Positions 6,033 through 16,611 of a stretch of 64,000 bases of DNA are shown here, piece by piece. How positions within the stretch are numbered: position 1 is the stretch's first letter; every line of letters starts with the position of its first letter. A program made the translations under genes and the position numbers. Below the pieces are notes generated by a model. The model worked only from the letters and a program-made list of their open reading frames with translations, did no database searches and was not told the origin of the DNA. Source of the DNA: Hyphomicrobiaceae bacterium (GTDB taxonomy: Bacteria; Pseudomonadota; Alphaproteobacteria; Rhizobiales; Hyphomicrobiaceae); NCBI GenBank assembly GCA_022844275.1, contig JALHMB010000005.1, positions 62,001-126,000 of the forward strand. The letters are read 5' to 3'.

Positions 6033-7844
6033 CTACTCGGCAATCGACTGTAGCGCGGCATGGCCCGAATGGCGCAAGCGGTCGATCTCGGCGAGCGCCC
6101 ACGTGTACGTCGCCTCATAGAGTTCGCGGTGACGGCCCCAGTCCATGACGGACATGCGGTCGAGCATGGGTGGAACCAGCAGCACATCCGTCGGGCGCAG
6201 ATGCCGCTCGAAACCGTGCCTGTTGGCCATGAGCGCGCGCACGATCACCTGCCGTAAGTTCGGCGCTGGTGGGACCGCATTCCGCCGGAATGGCAGGAGC
6301 AAGCGCATGAGAAGCTCCGAGCGCGAGGGGAGCGCATCGTACTTGACTTCAAAGCGCTGGAGCTGCGGCGTCTCGAAAGACACAACGACGTTCGGCCCGC
6401 GCTTCAGATCGTGCATGATGCCGATCGGAACATTATCCATGAGGGCGCCATCGACGAGCATCTCGCCATCGGGCGTGTAGTACGGCGGCAGCAAGCCTGG
6501 AATAGATCCGGACGAGCGCACTGCGGCCCAGAGCTCGCCCCGCCGATGGCAATGGACCGAATGACGCGAGAGATTGGTCGAGATCGCGAAGTAGGGAATC
6601 CAAAGATCCTCGATGTCGATGCCGCCATAATGCGCGTGCAGCTGTCGATCGAAGTGCGTGTGATCGAGCAGGCTGAAACGCGGCCATGTGTAACGGCGCA
6701 GCGCCTTGCCGCGCACGAACATCTCGTGCGTCGCCTCGACGATTTCTTCTGGTGATATGCCCATGGCAAAGGCCGCGGCCATGGCGCTGCCGCCGGACGT
6801 TCCTCCCATGATATCGAAGCTGATGCCGCGCTCGATCATCGCCTTGTAGAGCCCGGTATGGGCCGCGCAGAACGCGCCACCGCCGCAAGCAACAAAACCC
6901 ATGGCCGAGCCGCGGATGAAGCGCGCAAGACGCTCTATGTCGTCGTCATCGATGAGTGCGACATGATGATGTGCGCCGACACTACGGCCGTCGAGCCACA
7001 GCGCGGCGCCTTTGGCCTGACCGCGCTTTGGGTGGATCAGAACGAGGCGATGCGACTGCGGGCGGAAGTGGCTGTTCGCAAACTGCTCGTGAGCCGTCAG
7101 AGGCACCATTTCGGTCGTATCGACGCCAGCCGTCCCGACACTCAGGATGAGATCGGCCTGCCGAATAGCCTTCTCCGACCAAGGTGTCATCTCCTCGTCG
7201 GCAACGAGCAACACGAAGTCATGACGCGTCTCGAGGGCATTGAGGGCACTTGTCGCGGCAGGACTGTCGAGATCTCCGCCGGCTTCGACAATGCGAGCCA
7301 GATTGCCGGACCTCACCAGCTCGAGTGATCCGTATCGCGCCAGTACGGCCGCCAGACGCTCGATGAAGCGCGAGGGAACCGGACGCGTCCCAGCCTGGAT
7401 AATCGTGATGATCCGCGGGATATGATCCGTGTGACGCGCGCGGCCCACCGTCTGATCTGCGAGGCGCACGGCGAGCGTCGCGGCCAATCGCGACCAGATC
7501 TCCGGATGGCGCGCGCAGAGCGCATCGAACTGCGATCGACTGAGCCGCATGACCACGCTATCGCGCGCGGCAGTTACCGTCGCTGTCCGCGTCCCGCCTG
7601 CGAGAAAGGCGATCTCGCCGATGGGGGCGCCGGCTCCGAGTTCCGCGACCGGCACCTCCTCGCCTGCTACCGTCACTTCAAAACGGCCGCTCTCGACGAT
7701 GAAGAGCGCATCGGCCGGCGCACCCTGATGGACAAGCACATCACCGCGCATCAGGCGAAGCGTCGTAAGCTCGGCGGCGATCGCCGCCCTCTCGGCCGGC
7801 AGCAGATCGCCGAAGATATCGATCGAGGCGAGAGGACTGCTCAT
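6033..7844 (-). CDS. Cyclic-nucleotide-binding patatin-like phospholipase (NTE/RssA-like)
   Basis: About 603 residues. Residues 1-125 form a cyclic-nucleotide-binding domain with the phosphate cassette GEIAFLAGGTRTATV (Gly76-Glu77, Arg86-Thr87-Ala88). A linker follows at 130-310. The patatin domain has GGGAF oxyanion loop (321-325), nucleophile Ser350 in GGTSGGS and Asp465 in DGA. The arrangement resembles bacterial neuropathy-target-esterase-type lysophospholipases, whose activity may be tuned by cNMP. The start is uncertain: the ATG at 7844 begins at the domain boundary, while an ATG at 7877 would add 11 residues. Neither has a strong Shine-Dalgarno sequence. An adenylate cyclase is encoded 5 kb away. 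Confidence 0.85.
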   Translation of the reverse strand: MSSPLASIDIFGDLLPAERAAIAAELTTLRLMRGDVLVHQGAPADALFIVESGRFEVTVAGEEVPVAELGAGAPIGEIAFLAGGTRTATVTAARDSVVMRLSRSQFDALCARHPEIWSRLAATLAVRLADQTVGRARHTDHIPRIITIIQAGTRPVPSRFIERLAAVLARYGSLELVRSGNLARIVEAGGDLDSPAATSALNALETRHDFVLLVADEEMTPWSEKAIRQADLILSVGTAGVDTTEMVPLTAHEQFANSHFRPQSHRLVLIHPKRGQAKGAALWLDGRSVGAHHHVALIDDDDIERLARFIRGSAMGFVACGGGAFCAAHTGLYKAMIERGISFDIMGGTSGGSAMAAAFAMGISPEEIVEATHEMFVRGKALRRYTWPRFSLLDHTHFDRQLHAHYGGIDIEDLWIPYFAISTNLSRHSVHCHRRGELWAAVRSSGSIPGLLPPYYTPDGEMLVDGALMDNVPIGIMHDLKRGPNVVVSFETPQLQRFEVKYDALPSRSELLMRLLLPFRRNAVPPAPNLRQVIVRALMANRHGFERHLRPTDVLLVPPMLDRMSVMDWGRHRELYEATYTWALAEIDRLRHSGHAALQSIAE

Positions 7845-7932
7845 GCACTGTACCAACCCTGGGGCCTGGTTACCCACAGTATAGGCTGGGTTCGCAATAT
7901 TGCGCCCGGCGCCTGAGAGATTGGTTCATGCA

Positions 7933-8023: not shown

Positions 8024-8443
8024 TCAGGCATTGCAACGCTTGAGATCAGCCGGAGCGCGCCGCCAAGTCATGGTCTCGCTCAGCATCTTGCTTCCCATGT
8101 AACCCATGACCTTCAACCGATCGCCGCCGAGGGTAGTGATCTCGACGCTGTAGCGCGCGTCATCCTCCGGATCGTAGATCCAGCCCTTGTCCCACTTGCC
8201 GGCAGCGATGGCTTTCACATTGCCGATGACTTGCGTTCCGCATGTCTTGCTGTTGGCCGCATCCTTGAGCCACACGATGCGGCCGCACAGCGCGCCGCCG
8301 CAGTCGGTGATCTCGACGGCGCCGCGTCCTGTGTGATCGTACCAGATGCCGGTCGCTTCGGTGGCGGCGGACGGCGTTGTGGTCGCAACGGTGGCTGCGA
8401 AGAGGGCGGCTGCACGAGCGATGCGCTTGAAGTTGACGATCAT
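8024..8443 (-). CDS. Secreted DUF2147 domain protein
   Basis: A 139-residue protein with an N-terminal signal peptide (residues 1 to about 25, ending near PSAATEA). The mature part carries the DUF2147 pattern: GIWYDHTGRGAVEITDCGGALCGRIVWLKD and later GYMGSKMLSETMTWRRA. Four cysteines in the mature domain suggest periplasmic disulfides. The biochemical role of the family is not established. The start at 8443 has a strong AAGGAG 8 nt upstream. The leader holds a 10-bp hairpin and operator site A (8517-8560), so it probably belongs to the local regulon described in the findings. Confidence 0.88.
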   Translation of the reverse strand: MIVNFKRIARAAALFAATVATTTPSAATEATGIWYDHTGRGAVEITDCGGALCGRIVWLKDAANSKTCGTQVIGNVKAIAAGKWDKGWIYDPEDDARYSVEITTLGGDRLKVMGYMGSKMLSETMTWRRAPADLKRCNA

Positions 8444-8516: not shown

Positions 8517-8560
8517 AGTATGTTTCTTGAGACGTTGGGGCGCTGTTCCGCCCGAAACAG
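8517..8560 (-). promoter_or_regulatory. Operator site A plus -10 (DUF2147 promoter)
   Basis: In gene orientation TGTTTC-GGGC-GGAACA (plus 8544-8559) is followed by 21 nt and then CATACT (8517-8522), a plausible -10. The palindrome would be centred near -41.5, as for class II Crp/Fnr activator sites. It is one of six near-identical elements in this region. Confidence 0.65.
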
Positions 8561-8572
8561 GAGCGAAGAAAT

Positions 8573-9307
8573 TCACGCCGCCGGCGCAAATTCGTTGTTC
8601 ACCTCGGACAGCCGACGGCGGGCACGGCTCGCGATGCGGCCATCCTCGATGCGGATCATGCGATCGCCGTACTTGAGCGTGCGGTGATCGTGCGTGACGA
8701 CGAGGACGGCGCGGCGCGTGTCCTTCGCGACCTCGGCGAGGAGGGCCATCACGGCCTGGCCATTCTCGCTGTCGAGCGCGGCGGTCGGCTCATCCGCGAG
8801 GATGACCGAGGGCGCACCCGCGAGTGCACGCGCAATCGACACACGCTGCTTCTCGCCGCCCGAAAGCTTACTCGGCATGACGTGCGCGCGATGACTGAGC
8901 CTGACGGCAGCTAGTGCCTCCCAAGCGAGATCCGGCGCCTCGGCGCGTGACGCGCCGCGGAGATCGAGCGCCAGCATGACATTCTCGAGCGCCGTCAGCG
9001 TCGGCACGAGATTGTAGGACTGGAACACGAAACCCACGTGCCGGCGGCGGAGATCTGCCATGCCTTCGGCACTCAGACCCGCCGTCGAATATCCAGCGAT
9101 GCTGAGCGAGCCGCTCGTCGGCGAGAGAATGCAGCCGAGGATCGAGAGCAGCGTAGTCTTGCCGCTGCCCGAAGGTCCCATGAGCAGGGTGAGCTCGCCG
9201 GGAGCCAGCTCCACGCTGACGCCCTTGAGGGGCATGATGTCACCAGCTTCCGAGCGGTAGACTTTGGTGATGTCGCGGGCTTCGAGCATGTAGGGAAGGG
9301 CGGTCAT
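8573..9307 (-). CDS. ABC transporter ATP-binding protein (MacB/LolD/DevA-like)
   Basis: A 244-residue ATPase energising the adjacent FtsX-type permease, probably for envelope export or lipoprotein-type extrusion. It has Walker A GPSGSGKT (44-51), Q-loop FVFQSYNLVPTLTALENV, signature LSGGEKQRVSIARAL, Walker B VILADEPTAALD and the H-loop VTHDHRT. The LVPTLTALENVMLAL segment is typical of the MacB/LolD/DevA branch. The start at 9307 has AGGAG 7 nt upstream; an earlier ATG would add six residues. It follows the permease by 24 nt, so the two form one operon with the secreted-protein gene at 11236. Confidence 0.93.
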   Translation of the reverse strand: MTALPYMLEARDITKVYRSEAGDIMPLKGVSVELAPGELTLLMGPSGSGKTTLLSILGCILSPTSGSLSIAGYSTAGLSAEGMADLRRRHVGFVFQSYNLVPTLTALENVMLALDLRGASRAEAPDLAWEALAAVRLSHRAHVMPSKLSGGEKQRVSIARALAGAPSVILADEPTAALDSENGQAVMALLAEVAKDTRRAVLVVTHDHRTLKYGDRMIRIEDGRIASRARRRLSEVNNEFAPAA

Positions 9308-9331
9308 GATCGTAACTCCTGGCAAAGGGGA

Positions 9332-10540
9332 TCAGCGGCTGAACACGACGGCCGGATCGATGCGGATGACTTTGAAGATGGCGCAGATGGCGGCGAGGAC
9401 GCACATGCCGACCGTGAGGGCGAGAAGCATGAGCGCGAGATGCGGGGTCATGACGATCAGCAGCGTCGAGTCTTCGGCGGCCCAGATGACGAGCAGGCTC
9501 AACGCCATGCCGAGGACGTAGCCGATCACGGCGCTGAGGATCGCCTGGATCAGGATGACCTTGTTGATGTAGCCCGCCGAAGCACCGAGCGCGCGCAGGG
9601 TCGCGAACTCATTGAGATGGTCCTTGGTGCTCGCGTAGAGCGTCTGCGCGACGATCACCATGCCAACGATGATCCCGAGCACGGCACCCGCGATCAGCGC
9701 GGCGCCTGCGCCAGTCTCGAACAGCCAGTAGTCGAGGCTGCGCTTGCGGAACTCGGCGTGGGTCAAGATCTCGGCATCCGGCAGGCGCTTGGCCAGCGCG
9801 GAGCGAAGTTCCTCTACGGCCGTGCCGGGCGCAGCCTTTACGAGCGTGTAGGATGACTGGTCGGCGGATGCGCCGAGGAGCGTGCGCCCCGTCGCAAGTG
9901 TCGTGAAGACGTACGGCAGTGTCGTGAACGAGCGGATGCCCTTGGTGACGGCGTGCACCGTCACTTCCATGTTGTTGACCTCGGCGCGGTCACCGAGACC
10001 GCCGACGCCAAGCTCCTGGAAGTACGTGCTGTCTACGGCTACGGCCGACGGCGCAGCAAGCGCGCTGGCGCTGCCCTCGGTCACGTTCCACGGCAAGCTT
10101 ATGCCCTGCGTGACGTCGGAGCCGACGAGCAGGGCAGCGGTCGAGCCACCCTTGGGCTTGCGCCAGTTGACGAAGCCGACGGCGAGTTCCTGCACGCTCG
10201 CGACGCCCGGCGTCGACAGCACGCCGTGGCGCTCGCGCCCGGAGAGCATGGCGGGATCGTCGAAGCTCTTGGTGCCGAGCGGCACGACCCAGAGATCGCC
10301 TTCCGCATGATCGAACATGGCGGCGATGCGGTTCTCCGAGCCGAGGTAGAGGCCGAACTGCACGGCCACCAGCACGACGGAGAAGACGATGCCCACGACC
10401 GTCACGATCAAGCCGAGGCGATCATGAAAGAGATTGCGGTACGCGAGCTTCGGCACCATCGGCAGCCGCATCATCCCCTTCCGGGCCAGCGTGGGCTGGC
10501 CCGGAAGTGCGACGGAGGCTGGTTCGGCTGTCGTTTGCAT
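9332..10540 (-). CDS. ABC transporter permease (DevC/MacB-like, FtsX domain)
   Basis: A 402-residue inner-membrane protein. One transmembrane helix at about 43-67 (LGLIVTVVGIVFSVVLVAVQFGLYL) precedes a large periplasmic domain at about 75-270. Three helices follow near the C-terminus, and the last segment ends FKVIRIDPAVVFSR, as in FtsX/MacB folds. This is the DevC-like topology that works with a DevA ATPase and a HlyD-type adaptor. The adaptor of this system is probably the gene at 15493. It lies 33 nt downstream of the secreted-protein gene and 24 nt upstream of the ATPase. Confidence 0.92.
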   Translation of the reverse strand: MQTTAEPASVALPGQPTLARKGMMRLPMVPKLAYRNLFHDRLGLIVTVVGIVFSVVLVAVQFGLYLGSENRIAAMFDHAEGDLWVVPLGTKSFDDPAMLSGRERHGVLSTPGVASVQELAVGFVNWRKPKGGSTAALLVGSDVTQGISLPWNVTEGSASALAAPSAVAVDSTYFQELGVGGLGDRAEVNNMEVTVHAVTKGIRSFTTLPYVFTTLATGRTLLGASADQSSYTLVKAAPGTAVEELRSALAKRLPDAEILTHAEFRKRSLDYWLFETGAGAALIAGAVLGIIVGMVIVAQTLYASTKDHLNEFATLRALGASAGYINKVILIQAILSAVIGYVLGMALSLLVIWAAEDSTLLIVMTPHLALMLLALTVGMCVLAAICAIFKVIRIDPAVVFSR

Positions 10541-10573
10541 TACACGTCTCCAATTGGCAGAAGCAACAGGTCA

Positions 10574-11236
10574 TCAGGTGCAGGGGACCGAGACGGTCTC
10601 ACCGAGGCTCGGGAGGTACTTCTTGCAGTCGCTGGCGTTGGCCGTGGCGTCAGGAACCTTCGGCGCATCGGCGACCGGGGCGGGTGCCACGGTGCGAACG
10701 GGCGAAGACTGAGCCGCAACCGGCTTCGGAGCTTCGACCGCCGGCTTCGGAGCTTCGGTCACCGGTGCCTCCGAAACCGACGTCGCCGTCTTGGTCTTGG
10801 CGGCGAACGCCTTGACGGTCGAGCAATCGACCTGCTCGGGGACCTCACCCGCGGACACGCCCCAGCCATTGCTCGTCTGGACCCAGCGCGCAGTGCCGTA
10901 GAACCAGCCGCCGCTGCGATAGGAGAAGCCCTTGCTGCCTTTCCAGCAGGTACCGGTGCCATCGAACCAGGTCTTGCTGGCGCGGTCGTATCTGCGACCC
11001 TCGTCGTCCGCGTACTTGACCGGCGCAGGGGCGGGCGTCGCGGCAACGGACCGCTTCACGATCACCCGGGGCGCCCGGTGCACGTACGTCGGTTCGGGCA
11101 CGGGGACGGGCGGCGAGAAGTGGAAATGATGGAAGCGGAAGTGACCGCGGCCACCGGCATCGGCCGATGTGCTGAGTGCGATGGTGGAAACAGCGGCGAG
11201 TGCCAGGGCGGTGAATGCGAAGGGGAGCTTGGTCAT
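10574..11236 (-). CDS. Secreted protein of unknown function with Ala/Pro-rich tail
   Basis: I do not recognise a family. The 220-residue product has a signal peptide (1 to about 27, cleavage near ADA-GG), a His/Phe-rich start (GHFRFHHFHFSPP), and a central compact region at about 75-140. That region has four Cys-flanked or Trp-rich turns (KTWFDGTGTCWKGSKGFSYRSGGWFYGTARWVQ). A low-complexity Ala/Pro/Lys stretch (150-195) and the C-terminal CKKYLPSLGETVSVPCT follow. It is the first gene of the operon with the ABC permease and ATPase. Operator B lies about 60 nt upstream. The ATG at 11236 follows AAAGGAAC. Confidence 0.8.
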   Translation of the reverse strand: MTKLPFAFTALALAAVSTIALSTSADAGGRGHFRFHHFHFSPPVPVPEPTYVHRAPRVIVKRSVAATPAPAPVKYADDEGRRYDRASKTWFDGTGTCWKGSKGFSYRSGGWFYGTARWVQTSNGWGVSAGEVPEQVDCSTVKAFAAKTKTATSVSEAPVTEAPKPAVEAPKPVAAQSSPVRTVAPAPVADAPKVPDATANASDCKKYLPSLGETVSVPCT

Positions 11237-11268
11237 TGGGGCGTTCCTTTCGTGTTGAGCTTGAGTGG

Positions 11269-11312
11269 ATGATGCGGGAAGTCCGGGGGCGGGGCTGTTC
11301 CGCGCGATACAG
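11269..11312 (-). promoter_or_regulatory. Operator site B plus -10 (secreted protein-ABC operon promoter)
   Basis: In gene orientation TGTATC-GCGC-GGAACA (plus 11296-11311), then 21 nt, then CATCAT (11269-11274). It has the same geometry as the other five sites and drives the 11236-to-8573 operon. An AT-rich AAAAATTT block lies just upstream of the palindrome. Confidence 0.65.
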
Positions 11313-11341
11313 GCGCGAAATTTTTGAGGCGCCCCCCAGGC

Positions 11342-12190
11342 TCAGGCAGCGGCGCGGACAGGCCGAGCGGCCTCGCTCGATCCCCAGGCGCGGGCAATGC
11401 CAGCGACGAAGGCCGCGGTGCGCTCCACGACGACGTGGCGCTGACGATCGACGGTCACGATGTGATAGCTGTCGTCGAGCACCACCATGTCGACCAGGCC
11501 CTTGAGGTGGCGCTGGAGGTACCAGGCATTGTCGAGGTCGGCGTAGTCATCCTCGCGCGGATGGATGATCAGCGACGGCTGGTGGATGGCGCCAAGCTCC
11601 GCGCAGACGGCTTGAACCAGGCGCCGATGCTCCAGGACGGCCCCGCCGGGGGTGCTCGGCAGTCCTGCAATGCTGCTGTCGCCGCTCTGGAGGGCATTGC
11701 GGATGAAGGCGCGAATGCGCTCGTCCTTGATGCCGTGGGGTTCCAGATCGGGAAAGCCGATCAGGTTGGCGATGCGCGTGCTGAAGACGAGGCGGAAAAG
11801 GCGGGCGTACCAGGGAATGAGCCAGCCGTTCAGCCAGAGCGTCGGGGAAAGCAGGGCCGTTCCCTGGACGTCGGCGGGGCGGCGGGCGGCAAGCAGCAGC
11901 GCCAGCACCGCGCCGGTCGAGAGGCCGCCCACGATAACCGTATCGCATTCCTCGCGCAGGAGCTGGAGGGCCGTCTCGGCGCTCGCGTACCAGTCCTGCC
12001 AGGTCGTGCCCTTGATGTCCTCTTCGGAGCCGCCGTGGCCGGCCAGCATCGGGCAGTAGACCGTGCACCCTGAACGGGCGAGGCCGTTCGCGACGAAGCG
12101 CATTTCGGTCGGGGTGCCGCAAAGGCCGTGGAGGAGCAGGACGCCCGTACGGCCGCCCGAGATGTAGTAGCCCTGATTGTCGATGATCAT
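11342..12190 (-). CDS. Alpha/beta hydrolase (carboxylesterase-type)
   Basis: A 282-residue serine hydrolase with an Est30-like layout. It has the oxyanion HG loop LLLHGLCGTPTEM (18-30), nucleophile Ser91 in GGLSTGA, acid residue in HPREDDYAD, and the C-terminal histidine in DDSYHIVTVDR. The substrate is probably a short or medium acyl ester. No signal peptide is visible, so it should be cytoplasmic. The start at 12190 is preferred over one at 12268 because the domain starts there and the promoter element C lies between the two. It is followed 29 nt later by the unrelated operator B region of the next operon. Confidence 0.85.
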   Translation of the reverse strand: MIIDNQGYYISGGRTGVLLLHGLCGTPTEMRFVANGLARSGCTVYCPMLAGHGGSEEDIKGTTWQDWYASAETALQLLREECDTVIVGGLSTGAVLALLLAARRPADVQGTALLSPTLWLNGWLIPWYARLFRLVFSTRIANLIGFPDLEPHGIKDERIRAFIRNALQSGDSSIAGLPSTPGGAVLEHRRLVQAVCAELGAIHQPSLIIHPREDDYADLDNAWYLQRHLKGLVDMVVLDDSYHIVTVDRQRHVVVERTAAFVAGIARAWGSSEAARPVRAAA

Positions 12191-12224
12191 TTTGCGGTGC
12201 CTCGGCTCGAGTGATGTTGCTCGA

Positions 12225-12268
12225 ACCGTAGGCAGCCAGCCGCCTAAGCGCTGTTCCGGCTGGAACAA
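12225..12268 (-). promoter_or_regulatory. Operator site C plus -10 (alpha/beta hydrolase promoter)
   Basis: In gene orientation TGTTCC-AGCC-GGAACA, a perfect 6+6 palindrome (plus 12252-12267). It is followed by 21 nt and TACGGT (12225-12230). It lies about 60 nt upstream of the ATG at 12190. Confidence 0.68.
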
Positions 12269-12324
12269 CGCGCGACGAATGCCGGAAACTCAATGAAATC
12301 GTGCTTTTCGGGGACGTGCGGCTC

Positions 12325-13026
12325 TCAGGCCGTATCCATATCGGCGACGGAACTGAGGATCTCGACATCGCACATGTAGGCCGCTCCCGAACGGGTGATC
12401 GCCCCCATGTCCTCGAGCGCCGTCAGGGCCAGATTGACCTTCGGCCGGCTGGCACCGATGAGCAGTCCGACCTCGCTCTGCGACAACCCCAGATCGAGCT
12501 TTGCCTGGCCATTCTTCGCCACTGCACCCTGCATCTTCAACGCCGACAACATGAGACGGGCGAGCCGCACTTCGATGCGGTGTAGCGCTATGGCCTCGAG
12601 CTTCTGGTCCGTATCCCTCAGGCGCTGGCAGAGAAAGCGAATGGCTGCGCTCGCCACCTTGGGGTTGTTCTCGATGAGGTCGTTGAGCGCCCGCTGCGGC
12701 AGCGTCATGGCGCTGACAGGGCCGATGGCCGTCGCACCGGCTGTGCGCTCGCCGCCGTCCAAGGTCGCGATCTCGCCGAAAAGCTCTCCAGGCCCCGCAT
12801 GCGCAAACGACAGCTCACGCCCTTCGGCCGACAGGACGGACAGCCGTATGCGGCCCTCGAGCACCAGATAGATCTCGCGACCGGGGTCGCCGCGCGAGAA
12901 AATCATCTGGTTCGTCTCGAATTGTACACGCCGCATACGGCCGACCACCGCCATGCGATCGCCATCGTCGAGGTCGCCAAAGAGTGCCGTCTGCGCCAGA
13001 AACGCGGCGATTGCTTTTTGATCCAT
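12325..13026 (-). CDS. Crp/Fnr-family transcriptional regulator
   Basis: A 233-residue two-domain activator. The N-terminal cNMP-binding fold (15-130) keeps the cAMP pocket residues FGEIA (Glu85) and ERTA (Arg94, Thr95). A dimerisation helix follows at about 115-145. The winged helix-turn-helix is near 180-210 (LSQSEVGLLIGASRPKVNLALTALEDMG). It lacks the N-terminal cysteines of Fnr, so it should not carry an oxygen-sensing FeS cluster. It is divergent from a membrane adenylate cyclase (169 bp between starts), which suggests cAMP as ligand. It is the best candidate to bind the six TGTTNC-N4-GRAACA palindromes around it. The start at 13026 is chosen; a 29-residue extension is possible. Confidence 0.92.
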   Translation of the reverse strand: MDQKAIAAFLAQTALFGDLDDGDRMAVVGRMRRVQFETNQMIFSRGDPGREIYLVLEGRIRLSVLSAEGRELSFAHAGPGELFGEIATLDGGERTAGATAIGPVSAMTLPQRALNDLIENNPKVASAAIRFLCQRLRDTDQKLEAIALHRIEVRLARLMLSALKMQGAVAKNGQAKLDLGLSQSEVGLLIGASRPKVNLALTALEDMGAITRSGAAYMCDVEILSSVADMDTA

Positions 13027-13194
13027 TGACAGAGATCCAAGAGCGTGTGGCCCGCGGCGAGGTGTCGGGCTAAGAGAGCAGCTAAGAGCCGCGCGCATCC
13101 TACCATGGAGCAAGTATGAACCAAGCCTTCTGAACGGGATTGAGACGGCTTGTTGTTGTCCAGATAGTAAAGCCTTCAGGACGGGAGAGGCAGG

Positions 13195-14538
13195 ATGGGG
13201 CCATTTCGCCTCCCATTCTCGGACACGAAGATCGTGCGTGGTGCCGGTCGATGGCTCGCCCGACTATCGGCCTATGGCACCGAGCCTTATCCGCCGCACG
13301 TGCAGCGCCGCCTCAAGATCATGAATGTCACGGCGTACGTGATCGCGCTGTTCACGCTCGTCTACGGTTTCCAGCAGATGTTCCTGGATTTCGAGACCTG
13401 GAAGCCGGTCATCATCATCAACTTTCTGATGGCCGTGGTGGCCCTGTCCGTTCCGTTCCTGCATCGCTACGGCGAACTGGTCGGGCCAATGGCGATCCTG
13501 ATCTCCGAGCTCGCCGGTATCTTCATCCTCACCTCCTTCGTCGGACGCGACACCGGGATTCATATGCAGTACTTCGCCGCGCCCGCGGCCTTCTTCGTCA
13601 TCCTGGGCCTCGGGAGGCTGAAACTTATTGCCGTCGCGATTGCCATCTCGATCGCGCTCTATCTCTCAGCCTGGTTTTTCTTCATTGAGAGCGCCGAAGG
13701 CCTGATCATCTCTGCTGCCGACGTCAATTCACTGCACATCACGGCCGCCGCCACGACATTCTGCGTGATCTCGATCGTGCTCTACTACGCCTTCCGCCTC
13801 GTCGAGCAGGCAGAGGCCCAGACCGACGCGCTCCTGTATAATATCCTTCCTGAAACGATCGTCGATCGGCTCAAAGCGAACCCGGACACGACGATCGCCA
13901 ACGAGTTCGCGGAAGCGTCGGTTCTCTTCGCGGACATCAAGGGATTCGTGGCATTGGCCAAGGAGCTCGGGCCGGCGCGCACCGTCGCCCTGCTGAACAC
14001 GATCGTGCGCGCATTCGACGAATTGGCCAACCGCTGGGGCGTCGAAAAGATCAAGACCATCGGCGATGCTTACATGGCTGCCGCCGGGTTGCCCGTACCG
14101 GCCGCCGATCATGCGGATCGCATTGCGGGCTTGGCGCTCGATATGATTGCGGCGGCTGAACGTATATCGAGAGAGCAGAATGTCGGGATCGTGCTTCGAG
14201 TCGGCATCGCCAGCGGGCCTGTTCTGGCGGGCGTGATCGGCGCCAAGCGCCTGATCTACGATGTGTGGGGGGATACAGTAAACCTCGCCTCGCGCCTCGA
14301 GCACCACAGCCAGCCCCAGAGCATTCTCGTGTCGGAGCTGACGCAGACGCGCCTCGGCAATGGCTATCAGCTCGAGCCGCACGGCAGCATCGACGTCAAG
14401 GGATACGGCGTCGTGCACACCTGGCTGCTGAAAGGACGTCGAGTGGACGGCCAAAGCGCTCCCATCGCGACAGAGGAGCTGCATCTCGCGCCGCCAAGTG
14501 ATGCTCTGGCGAGTACTGCAGCGCGGTCGACCGTCTAG
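13195..14538 (+). CDS. Membrane adenylate cyclase, class III
   Basis: A 447-residue protein. The N-terminal membrane domain has about six helices between residues 43 and 203. A short coiled linker (205-225) leads to a class III catalytic domain (about 235-420). Metal-binding Asp247 (FADIKGF) and Asp291 (TIGDAYMA), adenine-selecting Lys287 and Asp356, and transition-state Asn363/Arg367 (DTVNLASRLE) are all present, so it should make cAMP. The membrane domain resembles MASE2-like sensors. A GGAGA ribosome site precedes the ATG. It is divergent from the Crp-type regulator. Confidence 0.93.
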   Translation: MGPFRLPFSDTKIVRGAGRWLARLSAYGTEPYPPHVQRRLKIMNVTAYVIALFTLVYGFQQMFLDFETWKPVIIINFLMAVVALSVPFLHRYGELVGPMAILISELAGIFILTSFVGRDTGIHMQYFAAPAAFFVILGLGRLKLIAVAIAISIALYLSAWFFFIESAEGLIISAADVNSLHITAAATTFCVISIVLYYAFRLVEQAEAQTDALLYNILPETIVDRLKANPDTTIANEFAEASVLFADIKGFVALAKELGPARTVALLNTIVRAFDELANRWGVEKIKTIGDAYMAAAGLPVPAADHADRIAGLALDMIAAAERISREQNVGIVLRVGIASGPVLAGVIGAKRLIYDVWGDTVNLASRLEHHSQPQSILVSELTQTRLGNGYQLEPHGSIDVKGYGVVHTWLLKGRRVDGQSAPIATEELHLAPPSDALASTAARSTV

Positions 14539-14562
14539 CAACACTCACAACAAAAGAGTTGA

Positions 14563-14606
14563 TTGTTCCCACCGGAACAGCCCTGGACCAGTGACATCCT
14601 GCAGAT
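14563..14606 (+). promoter_or_regulatory. Operator site F plus -10 (small secreted ORF promoter)
   Basis: TGTTCC-CACC-GGAACA is a perfect 6+6 palindrome at 14564-14579. It is followed by 21 nt and GCAGAT (14601-14606), the weakest -10 of the set. It lies 60 nt upstream of a 65-codon frame starting at 14640. Confidence 0.6.
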
Positions 14607-14639
14607 TTGCGGCACACTCGCTGATGTGGAGCCGCTCCC

Positions 14640-14837
14640 ATGTTCACGCTGATCAATCCTCGTCGTTTGATACTGGTCGCTGCAGTATTGGCTGGCGGCC
14701 TCGCGGGCACCTTAGCTGTAGCATCGCCCACGACACCGGTCGCACAAGGCATATCCAGCACGCGCGAATGCACAAGCACACTCTGCCCGAGCCGAATTTG
14801 GCTTCGCGCCCCTGTCCTGCGCACGTACGCCAGGTGA
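14640..14837 (+). CDS. Small putative secreted peptide
   Basis: A 65-residue frame whose first 35 residues read like a signal sequence (RRLILVAAVLAGGLAGTLAVAS), followed by a short tail with two cysteines (RECTSTLC). No family is recognised, and the ribosome site is weak (GGAG about 11 nt upstream). Support comes from context: operator F lies just upstream and an intrinsic terminator lies 40 nt downstream, so a short transcript spans exactly this interval. Alternatively the transcript is a small RNA and the frame is incidental. Confidence 0.45.
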   Translation: MFTLINPRRLILVAAVLAGGLAGTLAVASPTTPVAQGISSTRECTSTLCPSRIWLRAPVLRTYAR

Positions 14838-14877
14838 TCAACAGTCTTCAGACCCCTTACTCGCGTTGACTTCACGG

Positions 14878-14905
14878 CCGCCGGCACCCTGCTGGCGGTC
14901 TTTTT
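14878..14905 (+). terminator. Rho-independent terminator
   Basis: CCGCCGGCA (14878-14886) pairs with TGCTGGCGG (14890-14898), with one G-U pair and a CCC loop. TCTTTTT follows. It ends the transcript that starts at operator F. Confidence 0.8.
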
Positions 14906-14955
14906 GCTTTAGCCCGAGTAGCAAACCCACGGCCGGGCGAGTTCAGAAAAGCAAT

Positions 14956-14985
14956 GCGCCCTCCGAACTGTGATCCGGAGGGCGC
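14956..14985 (-). terminator. Terminator-like hairpin downstream of the cold-shock-like gene
   Basis: GCGCCCTCCG (14956-14965) is the exact complement of 14976-14985, with a 10-nt loop. On the minus strand it is followed by ATTGCTTTTCTG. It lies 30 nt after the stop at 15016. Confidence 0.75.
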
Positions 14986-15015
14986 GCTATGTGCCGTCGC
15001 TTATCGGTCATGATC

Positions 15016-15240
15016 TCATGGGCCACCGGCAATACCGCCGAAGGCTGTCCAAGGCGAGCCCGACATGACGATGATCTCGGCCGGCTGATTGGCGGAAAGT
15101 ATGAAGTCGACTTCCTGGCCGACCAGATCCGCGGCAGCGCTGACGACCTGCTTCCGCGCAAAGCGATACCGCCGGCCGTCATCCGTCATGATGACCCCGA
15201 ACCCGAGGTCGTCGCGGTACTTCGTGATCTCACCCTGCAT
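15016..15240 (-). CDS. Small cold-shock-like (OB-fold) protein
   Basis: A 74-residue protein. The beginning (MQGEITKYRDDLGFGVIMTDDGRRYRF) and the DLVGQEVDFILSANQPAEIIVM strand have the spacing of a cold-shock OB fold, but the RNP1 and RNP2 aromatic motifs are largely missing. It may bind RNA weakly or have another role. The start at 15240 is fixed by AAAGGAG 8 nt upstream, the same kind of site as for the DUF2147 gene. Operator D lies 85 nt upstream, and the gene is divergent from the HlyD-type gene. Confidence 0.8.
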   Translation of the reverse strand: MQGEITKYRDDLGFGVIMTDDGRRYRFARKQVVSAAADLVGQEVDFILSANQPAEIIVMSGSPWTAFGGIAGGP

Positions 15241-15297
15241 GGCACTCTCCTTTGATGCGGCCTCGTGCTGCTTTGCTGAGGCTCATTGCGATGAGGG

Positions 15298-15341
15298 AGC
15301 ATTGCAGGGCGGCCGCGGGGGCGCTGTTCCCGGCATAACAG
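15298..15341 (-). promoter_or_regulatory. Operator site D plus -10 (cold-shock-like gene promoter)
   Basis: In gene orientation TGTTAT-GCCG-GGAACA (plus 15325-15340), then 21 nt, then AATGCT (15298-15303). An AATTTTT block lies just upstream of the palindrome, as at sites A and B. Confidence 0.6.
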
Positions 15342-15379
15342 GGCAGAAAAATTCGCACCCGTACTCGAAGGCGCACGGC

Positions 15380-15423
15380 GTGTTCCCTGCGAAACAGACC
15401 GGCGTTCACGCACTCCCTAGGTT
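15380..15423 (+). promoter_or_regulatory. Operator site E plus -10 (HlyD-type gene promoter)
   Basis: TGTTCC-CTGC-GAAACA at 15381-15396, then 21 nt, then TAGGTT (15418-15423). It lies about 70 nt upstream of the ATG at 15493. Its centre is about 56 bp from that of site D, so the divergent pair has two separate sites. Confidence 0.65.
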
Positions 15424-15492: not shown

Positions 15493-16611
15493 ATGCAGCC
15501 GCACCAGACCACGAGCCCGTCGCAGCCGATGTCCATTGGCACCAATGCACCGAGCCGCGCCCGTCGCCTCGCACTTATGCTGAGCCTCGTTGCGGCCGGC
15601 GCGGCGGGCGTACTCATCCCCCTATATGCAGCGCCGAAGCAGATCGCGGCGGCCATCGCTCCTGCGACGGCACCGGCCGCGCAAGCCCAACCCGATCGGC
15701 CCCAGTCCACCTGGATTGCCGCTGCGCCGGGTCGTGTGGAGCCGCGCTCCGGCCAAGTTCGCGTCAGCAGCCTCGCACCGGGCCGCATTCTCGAGATCAG
15801 CGCCGCCGCCGGCGACCGCGTCACCAAGGGCGACGTGCTGATTCGCCTCGACGACAAGGAAGCACGCGCACGCCTGACCGCGGCGGAGGCCGAGGCCTCA
15901 GTGCGCCAGCGCGAACGCGACGCACAGGCCGAAACGGCCGGCCGCGAGGATATCCGCAAGGCCGAGGACGCCTTGTTCGCCGCAGAGCGCGCCGCTGCAA
16001 ATGCGCGCTTCGCACTCGATGGCGTACTGGCCGCCGATCGCAAGGCGGCCGGCAATCCGCAGAACCTGCTTCAGGCGCGCAATGATCTCGCCAAGGCCGA
16101 GGACAAGCTACGCCAGGAGCGCGTCGCGCTGGCGGCGGCCCACGCCAAATCCAAGGTGACGGCGCCGAACCGCCTCGAAGCGGCGCTGATCGCGGCCCGC
16201 GCCGAGGTCACGCTCGCTGAGGAAATGGTCGAGAAAATGCGCATTCGCGCGCCGCTCACGGGCTCCGTGCTGCAGATGCACGCGAAGCCCGGCGAGCTCG
16301 CCATGCCATCCGCCGAGCAGGTGCTGGTCGTCATGGGCGATCTCAGCCAGATGCGCGTCCGCGCCGAGGTCGACGAGCAGGACGTGGCCAAGATCAAGCG
16401 CGGCCAGCAGGTTTTCGTGCGGAGCACGGCCTTCCCCGGCCGCGAGTTCAGCGGCACGGTATCGGAGCTTGCGCCCTCACTCGCCATGCCTCGCATGGGC
16501 TCGCGCGGCGCGCGGCGCTCGACGGACGTCGAGGTCATGGAAGTCACGATCGACCTCGAAGGCACCTCGCCGCTGATGCCGGGGATGCGCGCCGACGCCT
16601 TCTTCCGCTGA
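15493..16611 (+). CDS. HlyD/DevB-type periplasmic adaptor protein
   Basis: A 372-residue membrane-fusion protein. It has an N-terminal anchor helix (about 25-47), a lipoyl half-motif GRVEPRSGQVRVSSLAPGRILEI, a long alpha-hairpin coiled coil (about 120-240, rich in Ala/Glu/Arg), and the second lipoyl half (RIRAPLTGSVLQMHAKPGE). A beta-barrel segment follows, ending PLMPGMRADAFFR. It should bridge an inner-membrane ABC exporter to the outer membrane. The likely partners are the DevC/DevA-like genes at 9332 and 8573, which share the same operator. The ATG at 15493 has GGAGG 8 nt upstream. Confidence 0.9.
   Translation: MQPHQTTSPSQPMSIGTNAPSRARRLALMLSLVAAGAAGVLIPLYAAPKQIAAAIAPATAPAAQAQPDRPQSTWIAAAPGRVEPRSGQVRVSSLAPGRILEISAAAGDRVTKGDVLIRLDDKEARARLTAAEAEASVRQRERDAQAETAGREDIRKAEDALFAAERAAANARFALDGVLAADRKAAGNPQNLLQARNDLAKAEDKLRQERVALAAAHAKSKVTAPNRLEAALIAARAEVTLAEEMVEKMRIRAPLTGSVLQMHAKPGELAMPSAEQVLVVMGDLSQMRVRAEVDEQDVAKIKRGQQVFVRSTAFPGREFSGTVSELAPSLAMPRMGSRGARRSTDVEVMEVTIDLEGTSPLMPGMRADAFFR

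Follow-up and report, generated by a model that had tools for sequence, protein, structure and literature searches.

What brings a small exporter, a hydrolase and several secreted or small proteins under common control in a Hyphomicrobiaceae bacterium (assembly GCA_022844275.1)? The question is raised by a gene cluster in a 64,000-nucleotide stretch of contig JALHMB010000005.1 (positions 62,001 to 126,000 of the forward strand, hereafter the window), where six palindromic operators stand among genes that surround a Crp/Fnr-type regulator and a membrane adenylate cyclase. It is highly probable, judging by sequence comparison, that the cluster constitutes a compact cyclic AMP (cAMP) regulon of the Clr type, in which the receptor and a divergently encoded MASE7 cyclase would act through class II promoters to drive a DevBCA-like exporter, a hydrolase, secreted proteins and a cold-shock-like protein. 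The local cAMP-linked switch proposed by an initial annotation of this DNA thus gains support as a prediction because (i) the promoter unit is confined to the cluster, (ii) it recurs in front of homologous genes and (iii) operators and regulator co-occur across genomes.

The six palindromes, all present where the initial annotation had placed them, are the following:

8544..8559, minus strand: operator 1, TGTTTCGGGCGGAACA; -10 CATACT at 8517-8522; upstream of the DUF2147 gene
11296..11311, minus strand: operator 2, TGTATCGCGCGGAACA (one mismatch); -10 CATCAT at 11269-11274; upstream of the secreted-protein gene, devC and devA
12252..12267, minus strand: operator 3, TGTTCCAGCCGGAACA; -10 TACGGT at 12225-12230; upstream of the hydrolase gene
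14564..14579, plus strand: operator 4, TGTTCCCACCGGAACA; weak -10, probably CAGATT at 22 nt (14602-14607); upstream of the gene for a 65-aa putative secreted peptide
15325..15340, minus strand: operator 5, TGTTATGCCGGGAACA (one mismatch); -10 AATGCT at 15298-15303; upstream of the cold-shock-like gene
15381..15396, plus strand: operator 6, TGTTCCCTGCGAAACA; -10 TAGGTT at 15418-15423; upstream of devB

The pattern assigned to all six, TGTTNC-N4-GRAACA, is exact in only four of them (8544, 12252, 14564 and 15381), while 11296 (TGTATC...GGAACA) and 15325 (TGTTAT...GGAACA) each carry a single mismatch in gene orientation. With at most one mismatch allowed, the window contains 11 strand-hits for 0.51 expected, a number that none of 100 shuffles reached. 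The spacing between palindrome and promoter is strongly supported. We scored the six downstream stretches with a -10 matrix of assumed frequencies at 40 offsets, from 5 to 44 nt: the summed score was 14.2 at offset 21, the runner-up being -16.6 at offset 37, and none of 5,000 mononucleotide shuffles matched the value at 21. The hexamers listed earlier at 21 nt read as written, but a uniform spacing in six out of six is probably five at 21 and one at 22: site 14564 scores -2.3 at 21 (GCAGAT), 2.0 at 22 (CAGATT) and 2.2 at 12, and its orthologues in two clusters of the same genus both have their top score among offsets 15-29 at 22 (CACACT, 1.2), so that its spacing is probably 22 nt. In class II promoters the activator is centred near -41.5 with the -10 element downstream (a passage of PMC10127613). 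Relative to the predicted starts, an activator centre near -41.5 followed by a -10 element at 21 nt is found at five of the six sites, which therefore have class II operator-promoter geometry as far as sequence can tell; the sixth, for which the same position had been claimed, is probably centred 42.5 bp upstream. Operators 5 and 6 are divergent and their centres lie 56 bp apart, so each may in addition act as a distant site, at about -97.5, on the promoter of the other.

The genome scan that the initial annotation had proposed as a check covered 6,075,391 bases in 24 contigs, with the reversed pattern as control. For the palindrome alone (TGTTNCN4GNAACA) there are five places, of which the cluster holds four, and the reversed control is equally frequent (5 vs 5 per strand); the signal thus lies in clustering and promoter geometry rather than in the raw count. 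When the half palindrome is joined to its promoter (TGTN7GRAACA-N22-ANNNT, that is, 21 nt followed by NANNNT), all five matches fall in the cluster, against one match for the control, which answers that proposal. Taken together, the enrichment in the window, the shuffles at offset 21 and the scan of the promoter unit rule out a chance motif. One perfect-looking operator lies outside the cluster, at C2:583812-583827 (locus L001), and has no -10 at 21 nt. Its 18-mer is also present in genomes G002 and G003, the former having no regulator match, and we dismissed it as a regulon member on these two grounds.

Does the arrangement persist elsewhere? Two clusters of the same genus (L046 and L047) keep the gene order, with operators before the same genes in 6/6 cases in L047 and 5/6 in L046, where the pattern used found no counterpart of the 15325 operator. 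The spacers differ, yet four sites retain a -10 hexamer at 21 nt: CATACT (L046) and CATAGT (L047) at operator 1, CACAAT and CATAGT respectively at operator 2, TACGGT in both at operator 3 and TAGGGT in both at operator 6. At operator 5, L047 has GATGCT at 21, offset 29 scoring slightly higher there.

In other genera of the family, we collected 93 distinct strict operators from 79 loci, a non-random sample that combines 60 short loci (part of the matches listed) with 19 loci containing dev genes or the regulator and leaves aside L156, a locus of the same genus. Of 186 site-orientations, 61 show NANNNT at offset 21, whereas the other offsets between 8 and 44 average 7.2, and offset 21 is also the top one by matrix score (z 6.9). 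Counted by operator, 57/93 have NANNNT at 21 in at least one orientation. Looser half palindromes in the 19 cluster loci behave alike: 41/87 have NANNNT at 21, and any other offset between 5 and 45 has 0-9. In the same 19 loci we counted homologues of eight target types with an operator and NANNNT at 21 within 300 bp, dropping homologues below 50% identity for devA, 40% for devB, 55% for devC and 25% for the others; the small 65-aa peptide had no homologue (0/19 loci). With operator and NANNNT 21 nt apart, 24 target genes are counted, and any other offset between 10 and 39 yields 0-3. The full unit precedes 5/5 homologues of the cold-shock-like gene, 7/8 of the hydrolase, 3/5 of the secreted protein and 3/6 of the DUF2147 protein.

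The genes that these operators would serve, and the regulator and cyclase between them, are as follows:

8024..8443, minus strand: DUF2147 protein, putatively secreted (PF09917, 3.1e-22; scan used a longer start)
8573..9307, minus strand: DevA-like ABC ATPase (TIGR02982, 213 bits, cut-off 295.8)
9332..10540, minus strand: DevC-like permease (TIGR01185, 140.1 bits, cut-off 290.35; MacB_PCD, FtsX)
10574..11236, minus strand: putative secreted protein at the head of the devC-devA run (no match in Pfam or NCBIfam)
11342..12190, minus strand: alpha/beta hydrolase, 282 aa (PF12146, 4.5e-18; scan used a longer start)
12325..13026, minus strand: Clr-type Crp/Fnr regulator, 233 aa (PF00027, 9.7e-22; PF13545, 1.9e-8; scan used a longer start)
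13195..14538, plus strand: membrane adenylate cyclase, MASE7 plus class III catalytic domain, 447 aa (PF20967, 1.4e-39; PF00211, 1.2e-53)
14640..14837, plus strand: putative secreted peptide, 65 aa (56-57% identity in the two same-genus clusters)
15016..15240, minus strand: cold-shock-like protein, 74 aa (named by appearance only; no Pfam match)
15493..16611, plus strand: DevB/HlyD-like membrane fusion protein (PF16576, 1.2e-19; TIGR02971, 103.6 bits, cut-off 129; scanned from 15478)

DevA, DevB and DevC all fall short of the curated NCBIfam cut-offs for DevBCA, and we thus call the exporter DevBCA-like only. Adjoining the cluster, at 6033-7877 of the window, is a protein that appears by its sequence to combine a cyclic-nucleotide-binding-like domain with a patatin-like part; it also adjoins the cluster in L047 and has split matches in loci L151 and L152.

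Domains and gene positions confirm the divergent Crp/Fnr-type regulator and adenylate cyclase within the cluster. The best match of the regulator among solved structures is Clr (7pza, 1.1e-42), and Clr of Sinorhizobium meliloti in turn finds this gene as its top match in the genome (40%, 6.5e-43; next 5.6e-14). Among the residues of Clr that contact its box are Q184, S194, R195, K197, N199 and L152 (a passage of PMC10127613). The first five, which are side-chain contacts, are all identical here and L152 is Ile, while in the nucleotide pocket G85, E86, R95 and T140 are identical. The reciprocal best hit and the identical DNA contacts place the regulator, by sequence, in the Clr type (cluster G of the Crp-like proteins). 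Its closest named records are from Hyphomicrobium sp. CS1BSMeth3 (91%) and from the metagenome-assembled genome KLAP182 (89%), which places the window in Hyphomicrobium or a near neighbour of it. In the same-genus genome G003 a second Clr-type regulator, 57% identical, lies off the cluster (C2:1243215-1243883) with no adjoining cyclase. The catalytic domain of the cyclase scores 181.9 bits for PF00211 (cut-off 21.9), which assigns it to class III. With the core pattern, no operator is found in front of regulator or cyclase in the interval 13026-13195, nor before their counterparts in the family (0/5 and 0/2 loci); there is hence no sign of autoregulation at the promoter level, and we excluded operator control of either gene.

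The operator can also be compared with known boxes. The half-site consensus of E. coli Crp is TGTGA. Here the half-site is TGTTCC and, although the regulator keeps R180, it has Pro and Leu in place of the E. coli contacts E181 and R185; a strict Crp or Fnr operator was rejected for these reasons, and the likeness to E. coli class II CRP promoters lies in the activator centre near -41.5 with its downstream -10. The initial annotation had rightly set the half-site apart from Crp and Fnr but had missed its fit to a published box and regulator type, namely the Clr box of S. meliloti, HGTYHCNNNNGRWACA (as given in parts of PMC5498481 and PMC10127613), which five of the six cluster sites fit on at least one strand. 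Of the 22 places outside the cluster that carry this consensus, 20 were inspected in both directions (the other two, both on contig C17, had no locus) and none has a -10 score of at least 3 at offset 21, the best being 2.3. The two systems thus share the box, the reciprocal best hit, the DNA contacts and the G, E, R and T140 of the pocket, and the Clr targets of S. meliloti likewise include non-cytoplasmic proteins and proteins of unknown function (PMC5498481, in excerpt). They differ in that here all five promoter-unit matches are gathered in one cluster, with one spacing, around an exporter, in that the pocket has Thr for S96 and Asp for T141, and in that the cyclase is of the MASE7 type and encoded next door. 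The name DevBCA is absent from table 1 of PMC5498481. In cyanobacteria, devBCA is under the control of NtcA. That regulator is also a Crp-family activator acting from about -41.5, but it answers 2-oxoglutarate and reads GTAN8TAC (PMC3898017, in part), and the exporter described here is only DevBCA-like. Among the literature matches listed for DevBCA with Crp or cAMP, only PMC3898017 concerns devBCA. Among the open-licence papers listed, none described this cluster or a Clr-type regulon in Hyphomicrobium, and searches of that literature gave nothing on MASE7 or MASE cyclases, on DevBCA in alphaproteobacteria, or on adenylate cyclase and cAMP receptor protein in Hyphomicrobium. While S. meliloti already provides precedents for the operator and for the type of regulator, the strongly preferred spacing, the restriction of the unit to a single cluster and a target set centred on an exporter may be new.

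Operator number was also compared with the presence of the regulator. Among 60 genomes, the 18-mer TGTTNCN4GNAACAGC (both strands) averages 5.6 matches per genome in those with a strong regulator homologue (control 1.4, n=29) and 0.87 in those without (control 2.0, n=31), the latter including three genomes with weak matches of 32-34% identity (G073, G074 and G082); p=1.7e-8, uncorrected for phylogeny. Operator number thus follows regulator presence, with exceptions.

A number of observations weigh against a Clr-type cAMP regulon built in this way. (i), in the family, 36 of the 93 operators lack NANNNT at 21 in both directions. (ii), the full unit is infrequent before devA (4/14) and devB (2/14); it precedes none of 17 devC homologues, which have no operator within 300 bp at all, and two dev loci (L140 and L142) have no operator by the rule used. 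In the window, devC follows closely on the secreted-protein gene, which fits an operon judging by gene order; homologues of that secreted protein occur in 5/19 family loci. (iii), site 15325 lies outside the Clr consensus, and this consensus is not enriched genome-wide (32 strand-hits vs 37 in the control). (iv), the co-occurrence counts track phylogeny and the contrast is weaker within the family (28 vs 8, p=0.0016); genome G020 has seven operator matches with the regulator undetected, and G034, G006, G016 and G033 have the regulator with only 0-1 operator matches. (v), in the nucleotide pocket, S96 of Clr is Thr and the nucleotide-touching T141 is Asp, so that ligand preference may differ from Clr. 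(vi), a MASE7-type cyclase is absent next to the regulator in 9 of 20 fetched regulator loci, two of which (L151 and L259) contain only a distant cyclase-like match (27-35%). These 20 loci, taken from 37 places, belong to other genera except for one, a second copy within the same genus; they leave aside the window and the two same-genus clusters, in both of which the cyclase does adjoin the regulator, and L156, which repeats L250, is counted once.

The last two points bear on the alternative that survives best, that operators and regulator are as described but that the ligand is not mainly cAMP (cyclic GMP (cGMP) or another), or that several cyclases are served and the neighbour is not a private source. 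Clr itself responds to both cAMP and cGMP (a passage of PMC10127613). Its base-reading TT pair is TD here, and TD, AD, GD or TS at positions 140-141 of those relatives whose sequences could be read by motif search. Set against this, the cyclase has a K (in KTIGDAY) and a D (in YDVWGDTVN) at what we take to be the adenine-selecting positions, and a cyclase homologue (45% or more over a length of 388 residues or more) adjoins the regulator in 11 of the 20 loci. We regard this alternative as unlikely, though it deserves to be kept in mind. That another Crp/Fnr protein or an unrelated factor binds the palindromes, the Clr-type protein being a bystander, is quite improbable. In its favour, the regulator gene has no operator in front, the genome holds five more Clr-similar places and G020 retains its operators, but the DNA contacts identical to those of Clr and the co-occurrence of operator and regulator argue the other way. 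So does, weakly, a recognition-helix motif that matched this regulator alone among the six Clr-similar places, no helix being readable by that motif in the remaining five. A recent duplication of promoter DNA, suggested by an AT-rich stretch common to three sites, is largely refuted and hardly credible, since the spacers are unlike between sites and the unit, with differing spacer letters, recurs before homologous genes that are otherwise arranged and belong to other genera.

That AT-rich stretch lies directly upstream of three operators (window 8560-8580, 11312-11330 and 15341-15360). At 11-15 bp upstream, the A+T content is 0.53 in 61 oriented family sites vs 0.37 in sites with no -10; a docking site for the alpha subunit of the polymerase might look like this.

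Two further observations concern operators in other genomes. Of 17 copies of a metallo-beta-lactamase (MBL)-fold protein in genomes with the regulator, eight are preceded by an operator at a distance of 55-96 bp (L246:562-1305, L247:746-1489, L266, L268, L269, L276, L280 and L282); of nine from genomes lacking the regulator, none is. These 26 copies are 24 of those found, the less distant ones, and two chosen for having an operator. NANNNT at 21 occurs, among the eight, only in the two so chosen, and the copy in the genome of the window (L275) has no operator. The protein shows weak likeness to Apyc1 (7t28, 7u2r) and to RNase Z, with a Pfam match below the cut-off. Apyc1 cleaves cyclic nucleotides, and the MBL-fold protein is a candidate feedback phosphodiesterase. 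In G007 and G030, which belong to another genus, operators stand before proteins with RTX calcium-binding repeats (PF00353; L176:538-816 and L182:2-349), and the regulon may there feed type I secretion.

Returning to the Clr-type cAMP regulon, a sequence of events may be suggested. The MASE7 membrane cyclase would make cAMP upon a signal from the envelope or membrane, and cAMP would bind the neighbouring regulator, whose pocket residues are mostly conserved. The regulator would then bind the TGTTCC-N4-GGAACA operators, as its conserved DNA contacts and the co-occurrence suggest. As five of the six operators have their centre some 41.5 bp ahead of the predicted start, the dimer would extend over the -35 position and could activate RNA polymerase in class II fashion at weak NANNNT -10 elements. 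The exporter, the hydrolase, the secreted proteins and the cold-shock-like protein would be the output, probably a change of cell envelope or of secretion. It is tempting, if speculative, to go further and to picture an insulated, private cAMP line in which a single cyclase and a single receptor serve a single exporter cluster, with a strongly preferred class II geometry that recurs in the family and, in other genera, an MBL-fold target closing a negative feedback; we consider this extension doubtful.

As all five promoter-unit matches are in one place, cause and effect could be addressed by a single deletion series, which would be harder in S. meliloti with its 28 adenylate cyclases (according to a passage of PMC10463352). 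In this genome the promoter rule of half palindrome, 21 nt and NANNNT has enough specificity that it could be used on a trial basis to predict Clr-type regulons in other bacteria. If the proposed regulon is correct, Clr-type cAMP control, known from a plant symbiont, would also operate in the Hyphomicrobium family, whose members are mostly free-living, and would be tied there to a conserved exporter cluster.

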